NCBI RefSeq assembly: GCF_031458255.1
Contig: NZ_JAVDYC010000001.1
Location: 9,286,501 to 9,350,500 of the forward strand
Reading direction: 5' to 3'
Origin: Catenuloplanes niger
GTDB taxonomy: Bacteria; Actinomycetota; Actinomycetes; Mycobacteriales; Micromonosporaceae
Length of the DNA stretch: 64,000 nucleotides
Every line of letters begins with the position of its first letter. Position 1 is the stretch's first letter. Below are positions 3,278-52,246 of the stretch, in pieces. The notes under the pieces are model-generated. The model was not told the DNA's origin. It did not search any database and saw only the letters and a program-made list of their open reading frames with translations. The position numbers and the translations under genes were made by a program.

Positions 3278-4036
3278 TCAGGCGGGCCAGACGCCGCGCT
3301 GGGTGTAGACGTCCCGGAGCACGTCGAGACGGTCGGTCATGATGCCGTCCACGCCGAGGTCGAGCAGCGCGTGCATCTGCGCGGGATCATCGATGGTCCA
3401 CACGTGGACCTGCAAGCCCTGCGCGTGCGCGGCCCGCACGAACCGGGTGTCGACGACCGGCAGCCGCCCGTACCGGACCGGGACCTGCGCGGCCACGACC
3501 GACGCGGGCAGCCGCAGCCGCCGGCCGGTCAGGGACGCGACCCGCAGCTTCGCGACCGTCCGCATGCCCATCGACGTGGCGATCCGCGGCGCGAGCGCGC
3601 GGATGCGGGTCAGCCGCGCGTCGGAGAAGCCGGCCAGCAGCACCCGGTCCTGCGCGACCACGGACTCGATCACCCGGACGGTGGGTTCCTCGGCGCCGTC
3701 GGCCTTGACGTCGATGTTGAACCGCACGTGCGGCCACGCGTCCAGGACCTCGTCCAGCCGGGGTACGGCGGCCGCGCCCGCGACCCGGACCGTCGACAGG
3801 TCCGCCCAGGTCAGCTCCGTCACCCGTTCCGGTCGGCCGGTGAGCCGCCGCAGGTCCGGGTCGTGGAAGATCACCGGGATGCCGTCCGCGGTGGTGTGCA
3901 CGTCGGTCTCCACGTACCGGTAGCCGAGCGCGACCGCACGGGCGAACGACTCGGCCGTGTTCTCCGGGCCGTCCGCGGCACCGCCGCGATGAGCGAACGC
4001 GATCGGCCGCGGCGTGTCCAGGTACGGGTGATCCAC
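3278..4036 (-). CDS. Glycerophosphodiester phosphodiesterase
   Basis: 252 residues from a GTG at 4036 (MDHPYLDTPRPIAFAHRGG). This start was chosen because the family begins just before the HRGG motif; longer in-frame versions to 4132 add only low-complexity residues. HRGGAADGPENT, YRYVETDVHTTADGIPVIFHDPDLRRLTG and the late VHVWTIDDPAQMHALLDLGVDGIMTDR carry the catalytic histidines, the metal-binding acidic residues and the C-terminal barrel strand of the GDPD TIM barrel. It hydrolyses glycerophosphodiesters to glycerol-3-phosphate and an alcohol. There is no signal peptide, so it is cytoplasmic. Confidence 0.93.
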   Translation of the reverse strand: MDHPYLDTPRPIAFAHRGGAADGPENTAESFARAVALGYRYVETDVHTTADGIPVIFHDPDLRRLTGRPERVTELTWADLSTVRVAGAAAVPRLDEVLDAWPHVRFNIDVKADGAEEPTVRVIESVVAQDRVLLAGFSDARLTRIRALAPRIATSMGMRTVAKLRVASLTGRRLRLPASVVAAQVPVRYGRLPVVDTRFVRAAHAQGLQVHVWTIDDPAQMHALLDLGVDGIMTDRLDVLRDVYTQRGVWPA

Positions 4037-45905: not shown

Positions 45906-46820
45906 ATGACCACCGTCCAGTACGCCCACTACGGTGACGTCCGCATCGCCTACGAACGGTTCGGCGAGACCGGCGACCCACTGCTGCTCATCGGCGGCCA
46001 CGGACGACCCTCCACCTGGATCCCGGACGGCTTCTGCCACGCGCTCGTCGACGCCGGCTTCACCGTCGTCCGCTTCGACAACCGCGACAGCGGCCTCTCC
46101 ACCCACTTCGACTCGCACACCGCGGCCGGATACGTCAGCGCCGTCCTGCGCCGCACCCGCCGCCCGCCGTACCCGGTCACCGCGTTCGCCGACGACGCCG
46201 CCGCGGTCCTCGACGCCAACGACTGGCCCGCCGCCCACCTCGTCGGCGGCTCCATGGGCATCGGCATCGCGCTGCTCCTCGCCGCCCGCGCACCCGACCG
46301 CGTCCACAGCATGAACCTGCTCACCGGCGGCTACATGCACCAACACCGCATCCTGCGCTACACCCGCTTCGCCACACTGCTCAGCATCGCCGGACGCCGA
46401 TTCCCACCCGGCCCCGAGGGGGAGGCCGAGATGACCGTCGCCGTCATGCGCATGCTCGCCTCACCGCACGCACTCGACCGCTTCGACGACGACCTCGCCC
46501 GCGACATCGGCCGCCGCAGCCACGCCCGCCACCCGCACGACCCGGCCGCCGACCGCCGCCAGATCGCGGCCGGCCGCACCGGCGAACCGTGGCCGTTCGA
46601 TGCTCTGCCCGACGTACCCATCCAGATCATCAACGGCCTCGACGATCCGATGATCCGCGCCACCGGCGGCCTAGACCTGGCCCGCCGCCTGCGGGCCCCG
46701 ATCAGGTTCTATCCCGACATGGGGCACGACCTGCCGAAACATCTGTGGGGCACGCTGGCGGCGGACATCCGCGCGCTCGCTGACCGCCGGAGCGTTCCGG
46801 AGACCCGGCCGGCTGCCTGA
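45906..46820 (+). CDS. Alpha/beta hydrolase
   Basis: 304 residues. The fold markers are PLLLIGGHGRPSTWIPDGF (oxyanion strand; the usual HGxP is GGHG), VVRFDNRDSGLSTH, and the nucleophile elbow AHLVGGSMGIGIALLLAARAPDRV with Ser in GGSMG. INGLDDPMI supplies the acid and YPDMGHDLP the histidine. This is the DNRDSG subgroup that includes aclacinomycin methylesterase-like and other small-ester hydrolases. Substrate unknown; regulated by the divergent TetR. Confidence 0.92.
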   Translation: MTTVQYAHYGDVRIAYERFGETGDPLLLIGGHGRPSTWIPDGFCHALVDAGFTVVRFDNRDSGLSTHFDSHTAAGYVSAVLRRTRRPPYPVTAFADDAAAVLDANDWPAAHLVGGSMGIGIALLLAARAPDRVHSMNLLTGGYMHQHRILRYTRFATLLSIAGRRFPPGPEGEAEMTVAVMRMLASPHALDRFDDDLARDIGRRSHARHPHDPAADRRQIAAGRTGEPWPFDALPDVPIQIINGLDDPMIRATGGLDLARRLRAPIRFYPDMGHDLPKHLWGTLAADIRALADRRSVPETRPAA

Positions 46821-47384
46821 CCCGGTCCGGCGCGCTTCCGGCGAAGTTCGATAATGTACATTATGTCAACTTGACACCTCGGCGGGCGAGAGAGGCGCTC
46901 CCCGAAAGCACCCGGAAACCCCGAGGACCCAAACCCGGAAGATCATTCGAAGGTACGGCCGGCCACGCGTCCCCGGCGGCGCCCGCACTCCCACGGCGTC
47001 GCGGCCGGGCCGCCGGTGACGCACCGGCCGGCCACGAGACGCGCGCGACGGCGATCCGCACTCACGGCGGGAGGTGCACGACGACACCGACGACGCGCGA
47101 GCACGGTCCAGCGGCACGCATGCGCTGGACATGCGAGCGCGCCGGCCGATTCCGCGGGTGCCCGGAGGTGGCTTCGTGGCACGAGGGCCTCGCGCCCCTG
47201 CCCCGCTCGAATGGGCCCCGGAACGGGCGGTGCGTGATCGTCGCGCGCGTGTCGTGGCCGGTCCGGGTGGCCGTGCGCGTCGGCCGCGGTGTCGTGGGAG
47301 TGCGGGTACGGGTCGGACGTGTGGCCGACCGTACCGGCGAAGGATTTTCTGGCTTTTACGGGTTTTTGCTGCATAATATTCCTT
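46821..47384. other. 564-bp non-coding region with dif and dif-like sites
   Basis: No frame in this stretch shows coding character. It carries the dif-type sequence at 46844-46871 near its left end and the 10-6-10 palindrome at its right end, which runs into the recombinase gene. Between them the sequence is ordinary GC-rich DNA, turning AT-rich from about 47,340 to 47,385, which probably includes the recombinase promoter. Confidence 0.7.
46844..46871 (+). other. dif: Chromosome dimer resolution site (dif), predicted
   Basis: The 28-bp site consists of the XerC-side arm AAGTTCGATAA (46844-46854), the centre TGTACA (46855-46860) and the XerD-side arm TTATGTCAACT (46861-46871). E. coli dif ends its left arm with ATAA, has the centre TGTATA and the right arm TTATGTTAAAT; B. 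subtilis has the right arm TTATGTAAACT. The 11-6-11 layout, ATAA/TTATG core and right-arm sequence therefore all agree. A second small palindrome, GTCAACTTGAC, overlaps the right arm. The site implies the replication terminus of a circular chromosome. Confidence 0.85.
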
Positions 47385-47392
47385 ATGCAGCA
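47367..47392. repeat. Perfect 10-6-10 palindrome, Xer-type core, over the recombinase start
   Basis: TGCTGCATAA (47367-47376), centre TATTCC (47377-47382) and TTATGCAGCA (47383-47392). The arms are perfectly inverted and the centre is 6 bp. The inner bases are ATAA and TTATG exactly as in dif. The ATG of the tyrosine recombinase gene (47385-47387) lies in the right arm. It may be a recombination site, an autoregulatory binding site, or both. Confidence 0.8.
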
Positions 47393-48413
47393 CATACCGG
47401 ACGTAACGGGCGAACGTGACGAGAAGCTCATCGTGCTGATCGACGAGTTCCTGGCGGCGCGGGCGATCCGGAAGCCGTCGGCGCACACGCTCGCCGCCTA
47501 CCGGCGTGACCTGACCGCGATCGCCCGGCTGCTCGCCGACGGTGATCTCGTCCCCGACGGCACCGCTCCCCTCCCCCTGGCCACGCTGCCCATCTCGGCC
47601 GTGACCGCGCGGTCGTTGCGCTCCGCGTTCGCGCACTTCGCCGCGCCGCGTGCCGCCGCGTCGGTCTACCGCGCCTGGTCGACGTGGAACAGCTTCTTCG
47701 CGTTCCTGGTCGCGGACGGGCGGGTGCCGGGCAACCCGATGTCCGCGGTCGACAAGCCGCGCGTGCCGACGCCCACGCCGAAACCGTTGCGTGGCGAGGA
47801 GACGCCGGAGAAGTTGCTGGAGGCGGTGGCCGAGGCCCCGGACGGCCGGCAGCGGCACCCGTGGCCGGAGCGGGACCTGGTCGTGCTGGCCCTGGCGCTG
47901 TGTGCCGGCCTGCGCCTGGCCGAGCTGCTCGACCTGCGGGTCGGCTCGGTCGTCGGGCGTGCCGGTGAGCGCCGGGTGGAGGTGCTGGGCAAGGGCGGCC
48001 GGCCGCGGTCGGTGCCGATCGAGCCGGAGCTGGACGCGCTGGTCGAACGCTACCTGGAGTCGCGGCGCCGGCGGTTCGGCACGCGCACGGTGACGCGCGA
48101 GTCGCCGCTGCTGGTGGACCGGTTCTCCGCGCCGTTGCGCCGTGGCGGCCTGCAGTACCTGGTGGAGTCCTGCTACCGGCGGGCCGGCATCGTCGACCGG
48201 GTCCCGGCCGGCGCCCAGCTGCACGCGCTGCGGCACACGTTCGCGACCCGGCTGGCCGAGGACGGCGCCAGCGCCTCCGAGATCATGCGGCTGCTGGGCC
48301 ACGCCACGTTGACGACGAGCCAGAACTACATCGACGTGACCGCCGGCCAGCAGCGCGCCGCCATCAAGGCCAACCGTACGAACCGCGCGCTCGCCCGCCT
48401 CGCCGCCGAGTAG
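47385..48413 (+). CDS. Tyrosine recombinase, XerC/XerD-like
   Basis: 342 residues. The start at ATG 47385 (MQHIPDVTGERDEKLIVLIDEFLAARAIRKPSAHTLAAYRRDL) fits the N-terminal SAM-like domain. All catalytic residues are in place: Arg177 (GLRLAEL), Lys203 (GKGGRPR), His280/Arg283 (HALRH), His306 (LGHAT) and Tyr315 (SQNYIDV). There is no Shine-Dalgarno sequence, and the ATG sits inside a palindrome with a -10-like CATAAT 12 bp upstream, so a leaderless transcript is plausible. It is longer than XerC/XerD (about 300) because of an extended linker (TPTPKPLRGEETPEKLLEAVAEAPDGRQ). It is the obvious candidate to act at the adjacent sites. Confidence 0.92.
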   Translation: MQHIPDVTGERDEKLIVLIDEFLAARAIRKPSAHTLAAYRRDLTAIARLLADGDLVPDGTAPLPLATLPISAVTARSLRSAFAHFAAPRAAASVYRAWSTWNSFFAFLVADGRVPGNPMSAVDKPRVPTPTPKPLRGEETPEKLLEAVAEAPDGRQRHPWPERDLVVLALALCAGLRLAELLDLRVGSVVGRAGERRVEVLGKGGRPRSVPIEPELDALVERYLESRRRRFGTRTVTRESPLLVDRFSAPLRRGGLQYLVESCYRRAGIVDRVPAGAQLHALRHTFATRLAEDGASASEIMRLLGHATLTTSQNYIDVTAGQQRAAIKANRTNRALARLAAE

Positions 48414-48459
48414 CACCGGTCCCGTGCCCGGGGTAGCGCCGGGGTGCACACTGGTGGGT

Positions 48460-48948
48460 GTGAGTTATGACCCGCAGCCGCAGGATCCGTTCGGGGACAC
48501 GGCGCGCCTCTCCCCCGGTTCGTCTCCGTGGCGCGAGCCCGATCCGACGAAGCACGACCTGGCGCCCTACAGCGCGCCGCCCGCGGCTCCGATTCCGGCT
48601 CCGGTGCCGCCGGTGCCGTCGCCACCGGTGTTTCAGCAGGTGCAGCCGTTCTATCCGCCGCCGGCGGCGTACGGTCCGCCGGCGCGGCCGGTGAAGTCGA
48701 CCGGGGCGGCGGTGATGCTGGAGCTGTTCCTGGGCCTGTTCGGGCTGTTCGGCGTCGGTGCGCTGTATGCCGGGCGGGCCGGGCTGGGCGTGACGCTGAT
48801 GGTGAGTTACTGGCTGCTGTTCTGGGTGAACGTGGCGCTCGCGTTCGTGCTGATCGGGCTGGTCACGGGGCCGCTGACCTGGCTCTTCTACATGGTCATG
48901 GCCCCGGTGCTGGCAGCTCGCGCGGTCGACCAGCACAACGCCTACTGA
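48460..48948 (+). CDS. TM2-like membrane protein with proline-rich N-terminus
   Basis: 162 residues from GTG 48460 (VSYDPQPQDPFGDTARLSPG). The first 80 residues are Pro/Ala-rich and disordered. Two or three hydrophobic helices follow (VMLELFLGLFGLFGVGALYAG, VTLMVSYWLLFWVNVALAFVLIGLVTGPLTWLFYMVMAPVLAA). The G.FGVHxFYLG-like spacing of TM2 proteins is recognisable (GLFGVGALYAGRAGLG), but it is loose. Function unknown. Confidence 0.75.
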   Translation: MSYDPQPQDPFGDTARLSPGSSPWREPDPTKHDLAPYSAPPAAPIPAPVPPVPSPPVFQQVQPFYPPPAAYGPPARPVKSTGAAVMLELFLGLFGLFGVGALYAGRAGLGVTLMVSYWLLFWVNVALAFVLIGLVTGPLTWLFYMVMAPVLAARAVDQHNAY

Positions 48949-49323: not shown

Positions 49324-49396
49324 TGGATCATTGACCGATGCGAAAACGCGCCGAATCGGGGCTGTGGACCTCGTTTTCGCATCGGTCAATGATCCA
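49324..49396. repeat. 25-bp perfect inverted repeat
   Basis: The left arm (49324-49348, beginning TGGATCATTGACC and ending GCGAAAACG) is exactly complementary to the right arm (49372-49396, beginning CGTTTTCGC and ending GGTCAATGATCCA). The spacer is 23 bases. The arms are notably less GC-rich than the surroundings. The element ends 59 bp before the DUF559-type gene. Confidence 0.9.
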
Positions 49397-51268: not shown

Positions 51269-52246
51269 TCAGCTGCGGCGTCGGGCGCGGGCGGCCCAGA
51301 TGGTGTAGGCCGGGTCGCGGTCGAGGTTGTGGCGGTCGCGGTCGTAGCGGCGGGTGGTGCGTGGGTCGGCGTGGCCCATCGCGTCCTGGACGTCCTCCAG
51401 CGGTACGCCCTCGGCGCGGGCCGTGGTCGCGAACGCGTGCCGCAGCGAGTGCGGGGACAGCTGTTCCCATGCGGGGATGCCGGCGTCCCGGGCGAGCTGG
51501 CGGACCAGGCGGAAGACGGCGTGCCGGTCGAGGCGGCCGCCGCGGGCGGTGACGAACAGTGGCCCGTCGAGGTCGCCGACCGCGACGCCGGCGGCGGCCG
51601 CGCGGGCGTGCAGGTAGGCGTCGACGGCCGCGGACGTACCCGGGGTGAGGGCGCGTCGTCTGGCCTTTCCGCCCTTGCCGGTGAAGCGGACCGCGCGGTG
51701 GCCGCGTTCGTAGCCGAGGTCGGTGACGTCGAGGCCGCAGAGTTCGCCGACGCGCAGGCCGAGGTCGGCGAGGAGGGCGATGACCGCGCGGGTACGGTCC
51801 GCGGTCGGGCCGGTGGCGGCGTCGGCGGCGGCGAGGAGCGCGTCGACCTCGGCCGGGGCGAGGCCGACGGTGCCGGAGTGGTCACGGTCGACGTGCGGCC
51901 GGTCGGCGCCGGAGACCGGGTTGCCGGGGACGGCGTCGAGGCGGTGCAGGAACTCGTACCAGCTGGACATGGCGGAGAGCTTGCGGGCGACGGTGGTCGC
52001 GGCGAGCGTGGTCTCCAGCTGCCGTGCATATGCGTTGACGTGCAGGAACGTGGCCGCGAGCGGGGACAGGCCGTGGGTGTCGCACCAGGCGAGCCAGCCG
52101 GTGATGTCGCGTTTGTAGGCGGCGCGGGTGTGCGCGGACAGCCGCCGGTTGGCCAGCCACGCGTCGGTGAAGTCGGCCGCGCCGCCGGTGTCGAGCTCAC
52201 GGCGGGCGGCGGGGATGACGGTGCCGATCTCCACGAGCAAAACCAT
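51269..52246 (-). CDS. Tyrosine recombinase/integrase, XerD-like
   Basis: 325 residues. An N-terminal core-binding domain (DFTDAWLANRRLSAHTRAAYKRDITGWLAWCDTHGL) is followed by a complete catalytic domain: Arg165 (GLRVGEL), Lys191 (GKGGKAR), His266/Arg269 (HSLRH), His292 (MGHADPRTT) and Tyr301 (RRYDRD). The CDTHG loop and the length are closer to mobile-element or actinobacterial Xer-like integrases than to XerC/D proper. It is convergent with the exported protein and no attachment site is evident next to it. With the recombinase at 47385 it brackets the dif-containing region. Confidence 0.9.
   Translation of the reverse strand: MVLLVEIGTVIPAARRELDTGGAADFTDAWLANRRLSAHTRAAYKRDITGWLAWCDTHGLSPLAATFLHVNAYARQLETTLAATTVARKLSAMSSWYEFLHRLDAVPGNPVSGADRPHVDRDHSGTVGLAPAEVDALLAAADAATGPTADRTRAVIALLADLGLRVGELCGLDVTDLGYERGHRAVRFTGKGGKARRRALTPGTSAAVDAYLHARAAAAGVAVGDLDGPLFVTARGGRLDRHAVFRLVRQLARDAGIPAWEQLSPHSLRHAFATTARAEGVPLEDVQDAMGHADPRTTRRYDRDRHNLDRDPAYTIWAARARRRS

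Follow-up and report, generated by a model that had tools for sequence, protein, structure and literature searches.

A bacterial chromosome is generally believed to rely on a single system for resolving dimers. In its canonical form, XerCD/dif, two recombinases act on a heterotypic 28-bp site at the terminus, laid out as two 11-bp arms around a 6-bp centre (11-6-11) with an ATAA/TTAT core. Systems built on a single recombinase are already known as well. XerS/difSL of streptococci and lactococci is described as a site–gene module at the terminus with an atypical 31-bp site (PMC5357621). XerH/difH of the epsilon-proteobacteria likewise pairs one recombinase with a terminal, usually gene-linked site, XerH being described as the only ubiquitous Xer protein of these bacteria (PMC2731167). 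For XerL/dif of Legionellales, one Xer recombinase is reported, with plasmid-borne relatives and a terminal site whose arms are long uninterrupted inverted repeats (10 and 12 bp), the gene in Legionella lying more than 400 kb from the site (PMC9765430).

A locus of the actinobacterium Catenuloplanes niger resembles each of these systems in part. We use difX and XerX as working names for its palindromic site and the tyrosine recombinase belonging to it. With XerCD/dif it shares the 28-bp layout, the core and the terminal position; with XerS/difSL and XerH/difH, a single recombinase and a terminal site linked to its gene; and with XerL/dif, the single recombinase, the terminus, plasmid-borne relatives and the long inverted repeats. 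It departs from XerCD/dif, a heterotypic site with two recombinases, and XerX falls in a clade separate from both. difX does not have the 31-bp layout of difSL, XerX is not a sole ubiquitous Xer protein as XerH is, and, unlike the site of XerL/dif, difX lies near both canonical dif and xerX in genomes where XerC and XerD are also present. Such coexistence with XerCD/dif was not found among the literature matches listed, and no title among them concerns a second site or an extra Xer recombinase beside dif in actinobacteria; the suggestion of an earlier note on this DNA that the system is undescribed agrees with these matches, which leave subscription journals mostly uncovered. In one survey, dif was predicted in 66 of 66 Actinobacteria, and its ‘two dif’ wording concerns Vibrio and phage ORFs (PMC3025954).

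The window, by which we mean the whole stretch of 64,000 nucleotides analysed, carries TGCTGCATAATATTCCTTATGCAGCA at positions 47367–47392, with the perfect 10-bp arms and 6-bp centre that the earlier note had described and at the distance of 496 bp from dif that it had given. In Xer notation, difX occupies 47366–47393 on the forward strand as TTGCTGCATAA-TATTCC-TTATGCAGCAC (left arm 47366–47376, centre 47377–47382, right arm 47383–47393), an 11-6-11 site whose arms agree at 10 of 11 positions. Canonical heterotypic dif, AAGTTCGATAA-TGTACA-TTATGTCAACT, lies on the same strand at 46844–46871 and is similar to the Frankia dif given in PMC3025954. The two sites had been said to share their inner bases, and they are indeed the only occurrences of ATAA-N6-TTAT in the window. 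By first-order Markov simulation, a perfect 10-6-10 palindrome is expected 0.56 times per 64 kb, which makes symmetry by itself no rarity; ATAA-N6-TTAT cores are expected 0.0016 times per 64 kb, and none with at least 9 of 10 arm positions matching arose in 40 Mb of sequence simulated in the same way. Allowing up to three mismatches, the window holds no further copy of TGCTGCATAATATTCCTTATGCAGCA, 100 shuffles yielded none, and the genome-wide search that the earlier note had proposed found no second copy in the 9.74-Mb genome. The palindrome is genuine, single-copy and beyond chance.

The gene xerX (47385–48413, forward strand) encodes a tyrosine recombinase of 342 residues with both domains usual for the Xer type, PF00589 (E 2.8e-22) and PF02899. 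R177, K203, H280, R283, H306 and Y315, presumably the catalytic residues judging from the XerD spacing, are invariant in 22 of 22 aligned sequences. XerX stays far under the cut-offs of the XerC model TIGR02224 (157 against 335 bits) and of the XerD model TIGR02225 (135.9 against 330 bits, a cut-off also unmet by most XerC and XerD proteins of the 16 genomes searched), and equally far under that of the XerS model NF003462 (67.7 against 267 bits). A misnamed XerC or XerD is ruled out by these scores together with the separate clade in the tree. The structure model is of moderate quality (mean pLDDT 78.6, pTM 0.55), with the general fold alone recognisable, and it matches XerH structures at that level only. 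XerX is not the only Xer recombinase of its host, which also encodes canonical XerC (L176) and XerD (L177). In this XerC, which is 458 residues long from the chosen Met, a long Ala/Pro/Gly-rich insert separates the N-terminal from the catalytic part, and because of the insert the protein shows up as two pieces in the model search.

For the comparison across genomes, families carry arbitrary labels (f1, f2, f3, f18 and f19). We take f1 to be the Micromonosporaceae, from the genera of its named loci; f18 may be the Streptosporangiaceae, which is only a guess. Conservation of the palindrome and of its position at orthologous loci, the check that the earlier note had called for, holds for the named loci: difX sits at the xerX start codon in 80 of 80 from the Micromonosporaceae, the ones retained from 502 confirmed loci. 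Micromonospora, Actinoplanes, Salinispora and Plantactinospora are among the genera these 80 come from, and the closest relative with a name is Catenuloplanes japonicus. The 14 inner bases are all kept in 71 of these loci, 13 of them in five and 12 in four. difX is the strongest conserved block there, about 10 bases just upstream being conserved more weakly, and the same criterion gave one off-site symmetric hit, a dissimilar one, in 1.25 Mb of the 80 loci.

Searches of 150 f1 genomes agree with this. Some XerX match at E 0.001 was present in 146, and 76 belong to the orthologous group (E 4.4e-79 or better; in G110 a TGA falls inside the matched stretch), 62 of them with at least 67% identity. 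An exact match to TGCATAA-N6-TTATGCA is present in 63 of the 150 genomes, at one place each, and one to its reversed control in none. Sixty-one of the 63 sites adjoin a close xerX, the distance between the beginning of the site and that of the protein match being −4 to 167 bp, and 61 of the 62 genomes whose XerX reaches 67% identity or more have the exact site; the 62nd, G092 (L016), has difX with one inner change. As to the other two, the best XerX match in G115 is no better than 3e-21, and the match in G004 lies 1.7 Mb from xerX and was judged to be due to chance.

Beyond the close orthologs, XerX relatives at E 1e-30 were found in 25 of 296 genomes of the class (18 in f18, three in f1, two in f2, one each in f3 and f19), mostly with symmetric sites. 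Arms and centres differ in f18, in f3 and in the diverged genera of f1, as in TTTCCACATAA-CTACCC-TTATGTGGAAA, TTTCAGCATAA-GTGACA-TTATGCTGAAA, ATCCAGGATAA-TATGTA-TTATCCTGGAT and TTGATGGATAA-TCGCGG-TTATCCATCAC. Among 80 f18 genomes, 27 have XerX, 24 an exact site and 22 both; the exact site is lacking from five genomes with XerX (G457, G477, G388, G362 and G468), three of which, G457, G388 and G362, carry an inexact one. Symmetric sites without a XerX match at E 1e-30 occur in G186 and G491 (contigs C162/L187 and C34/L188). Twelve of 14 diverged f1 genomes have the site by the full criterion, mostly with 8–9 of 11 arm positions matching, and G062 has a weaker one with 7 of 11. No symmetric site was found in 20 kb near xerX in G007 (f1), G338 (f19) and G468 (f18), nor on the 7.4-kb xerX contig of G477. 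Three f18 loci contain a gene for a multi-pass membrane protein of about 450 residues, read from the sequence (L164 2440–3834, L162 2528–3922 and L183 2223–3566), which separates difX from xerX or, in the case of an inverted xerX, adjoins difX.

Arm symmetry persists across this divergence. Across 23 distinct lineage sites (25 typed), the arms match at 225 of 253 positions compared with 184 after shuffling (0 of 5000 shuffles), a figure that is biased upward because the sites were partly picked for symmetry. Within the Micromonosporaceae, no arm covariation beyond column composition was detected (365 of 462 matches against 364.2 shuffled; 80 loci, 42 distinct arm pairs).

difX tracks canonical dif more closely than it tracks xerX. 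By pattern, dif was found in 74 of the 80 named loci, within 1.5 kb of difX in 73 of them, and on the same contig as 61 of the 63 exact f1 sites, within 1.5 kb of 59 (median 443 bp; the exceptions are G112 at 2.3 kb and G009 at 5.4 kb). All 16 exact f18 sites with dif on their contig lie 298–1291 bp from it; xerX is 193 bp to 6.1 kb from the site in 15 of these genomes, and the 16th, G186, has no detected XerX and a site 498 bp from dif. Where gene and site have parted, difX stays about 0.24–1.8 kb from dif and xerX is up to 9.5 kb off or on the wrong side. In G319, G328 and G485 (f18), the site lies past the 3′ end of xerX; in five further f18 genomes (L223–L227), it is 0.4–0.7 kb from dif and 4.8–7.7 kb from the xerX catalytic motif; in the diverged f1 genus of G012, it is up to 1.8 kb from dif. 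The site of G004, which was sought beside dif with other members as a guide, is 285 bp from dif and 9.5 kb from xerX. The orientation of dif relative to difX varies.

dif-bearing genomes without XerX are common (31 of 97 in f1, 28 of 45 in f18), and 6-kb dif neighbourhoods from such genomes served as a control (17 of the 31 in f1 and 14 of the 28 in f18, plus the short G186 contig). The symmetric site was absent from 31 of these 32 neighbourhoods, G186 being the exception. In 30 genomes chosen for few contigs, 12 of them with rounded chromosome lengths, the distance of xerX from dnaA was expressed as a fraction of the half chromosome; it is 0.94–0.995 in 29 and 0.76 in G032. In these respects difX resembles dif, being terminal and present once per chromosome, and the central claim of the earlier note, that a symmetric site of the Xer type belongs with a single recombinase in the terminus region, is supported by its conservation, its linkage to xerX and dif, and the distance from dnaA.

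Ten of the 27 f18 genomes with XerX have no dif of the exact pattern. Eight of these were checked for XerC and XerD (G477 and G498 were left out): at one mismatch, dif is absent from five, and G446, G466 and G487 have only single-mismatch hits elsewhere in the genome. A search with the XerD model returned one strong XerC/XerD hit in each of the eight, as opposed to two in each of eight dif-bearing comparison genomes, where XerC and XerD are thus both present. By the tree, the remaining recombinase is XerD in all eight; XerC was not found. XerX matches in G204, G406, G446, G466 and G487 are preceded by a symmetric site at 62–87 bp, that of G388 by one at about 30 bp and that of G362 at about 1.1 kb. 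In G468 and G487, xerX lies at 0.504 and 0.4996 of its contig; the GC skew sampled was too noisy to place the terminus, and no dnaA turned up in a quick look at contig starts. Absence of XerC and dif beside xerX fits a replacement of XerCD/dif by XerX/difX, which has probably taken place at least once, though the loss may also be independent of XerX. XerD is kept without XerC or dif in G204, G406, G446, G466, G487, G362, G468 and G388, with a TAG near its end in G487, and this persistence is not accounted for by the XerX/difX model.

We consider it likely that XerX/difX is a homotypic Xer recombinase with its site, serving terminus or dimer resolution beside XerCD/dif and, in genomes from which XerC and dif seem to be missing, probably taking its place. 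Each of the symmetric 11-bp arms of difX would be bound by one XerX monomer; a tetramer would synapse the sites of sister chromosomes, or of a chromosome dimer, cleave them and exchange strands across the 6-bp centre, so that dimers would be resolved or termini unlinked where replication ends and FtsK would deliver the DNA. XerX/difX would act beside XerCD/dif in most lineages that have XerX, and probably in its stead in those where XerC and dif were not found. Layout, symmetry, single copy, terminal position and the drift of the centre all fit one recombinase that would act between sister copies. If so, an actinobacterial group appears to keep two distinct dimer-resolution systems within a few hundred bases of each other, and certain relatives appear to have switched from one to the other, which would make the replacement of a core chromosome-maintenance function and the need for a site near dif directly testable. 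The finding would be of relevance for annotating and engineering the genomes of Micromonospora, Actinoplanes and Salinispora, and XerX/difX may supply a new orthogonal recombinase–site pair.

In the Micromonosporaceae, difX overlaps the beginning of xerX. As the earlier note had pointed out, the ATG (47385–47387, forward strand) lies within the right arm and a −10-like CATAAT (47372–47377, forward strand) in the left arm, seven bases before it, as part of a possible leaderless promoter; the ATG is in frame and the reading frame open in 80 of 80 named loci. No sigma-70 promoter with a −35 box was found in 46800–48500, and no Shine–Dalgarno-like motif precedes the in-arm ATG in any of the 80 loci, nine of which have an alternative, Shine–Dalgarno-preceded start within 25 codons. 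Leaderless initiation of xerX and its self-repression are plausible in this family, as a trait secondary to the role at the terminus; because difX overlaps promoter and start codon there, xerX would probably be repressed by its own product bound to difX. The locus would also allow tests of how the site on which a recombinase acts can double as promoter and start codon of the recombinase gene. A further claim, that recombination would swap the DNA upstream of xerX, found no support: with a single difX per genome, the partners would be sister copies, and a crossover within 47377–47382 between identical sister sites would restore xerX after every round. An invertible or promoter-swapping switch is ruled out by the same copy number.

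This overlap could also be read as the whole purpose of the palindrome, which would then be no more than an operator through which the recombinase controls its own synthesis while acting elsewhere, for example at dif. Such a reading gains from the position of the site over the start codon in all 80 Micromonosporaceae loci and about 30–103 bp upstream of the protein match in several other lineages. Yet difX has Xer 11-6-11 geometry and an ATAA/TTAT core, and autoregulation cannot be all it is for, because elsewhere it lies kilobases upstream of the gene, as in many f18 genomes, 9.5 kb from it, as in G004, or past its 3′ end, as in G319, G328 and G485; of these displaced sites, all that share a contig with dif are no more than 1.3 kb away from it. 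A pure autoregulatory operator is rejected on this ground, and we rate an operator for a recombinase working at another site as quite improbable. XerX might, on the other hand, be an accessory factor or a partner of XerD that substitutes for XerC at dif or difX, for which the retention of XerD where XerC was not found and the closeness of difX to dif would speak; the (near-)symmetric arms of difX, unlike the XerD arm of dif (TTATGTCAA), the different centres of the two sites and the many dif-bearing genomes that lack XerX make a role of this kind highly improbable.

The ancestry of XerX bears on a third view, namely that xerX and difX are a domesticated remnant of plasmid multimer resolution or of an IMEX-like integration at or near dif, with little function now. 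A tree of 57 proteins places XerX in a clade of its own, separate from XerC and XerD and adjacent to mycobacterial plasmid recombinases, although its exact neighbours are unsure because the program flagged long branches; G388 has a XerX relative (37% identity) that does not belong to the clade of XerX and plasmid proteins. Plasmid records with XerX relatives number 33, at about 37–41% identity. On one of three named plasmids read, a mycobacterial one (L181), a symmetric site, GTCGTGGATAA-CGACTG-TTATCCATGAG, stands at 3902, just upstream of the gene; none was found on the other two (L180 and L182). Mobility genes are moreover reported near about a quarter of dif sites in PMC2731167. A mere remnant nevertheless sits badly with family-wide conservation, with one difX per genome and one other symmetric hit in the flanks of the 80 loci, with invariance of the presumed catalytic residues in 22 sequences, and with the lack of any phage relative at E 1e-10, by which a phage origin is rejected. 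Nor does the window contain an element flanked by two dif-like sites, as an IMEX would be; it holds one symmetric site and one dif. Plasmid origin is compatible with a single-recombinase system, absence of function is not, and we regard the remnant as unlikely. Our reading of XerX/difX as a working recombinase and site can be widened to a proposal towards which we lean only slightly: an independent, horizontally transferable dimer-resolution system, related to plasmid recombinases, that would settle no farther than about 1 kb from dif, run parallel to XerCD/dif, be autoregulated in the Micromonosporaceae and have pushed out XerC and dif in some members of another actinobacterial family, with the replacement seen at several stages.

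Two other features of the neighbourhood deserve mention. Downstream of the xerX locus, TGGATCATTGACCGATGCGAAAACG forms a perfect 25-bp inverted repeat (49324–49348 and 49372–49396) with a 23-bp spacer. A second, different tyrosine recombinase, P0002, is encoded on the reverse strand at 51269–52246, about 4.4 kb from dif; no common symmetric site was found upstream of it in the window and 18 other loci. Recombinases scoring like P0002 sit near the terminus of many genomes, whether or not these have XerX, for instance 1.8 kb from dif in G452 and 0.8–4.7 kb from xerX in G446, G466 and G468.
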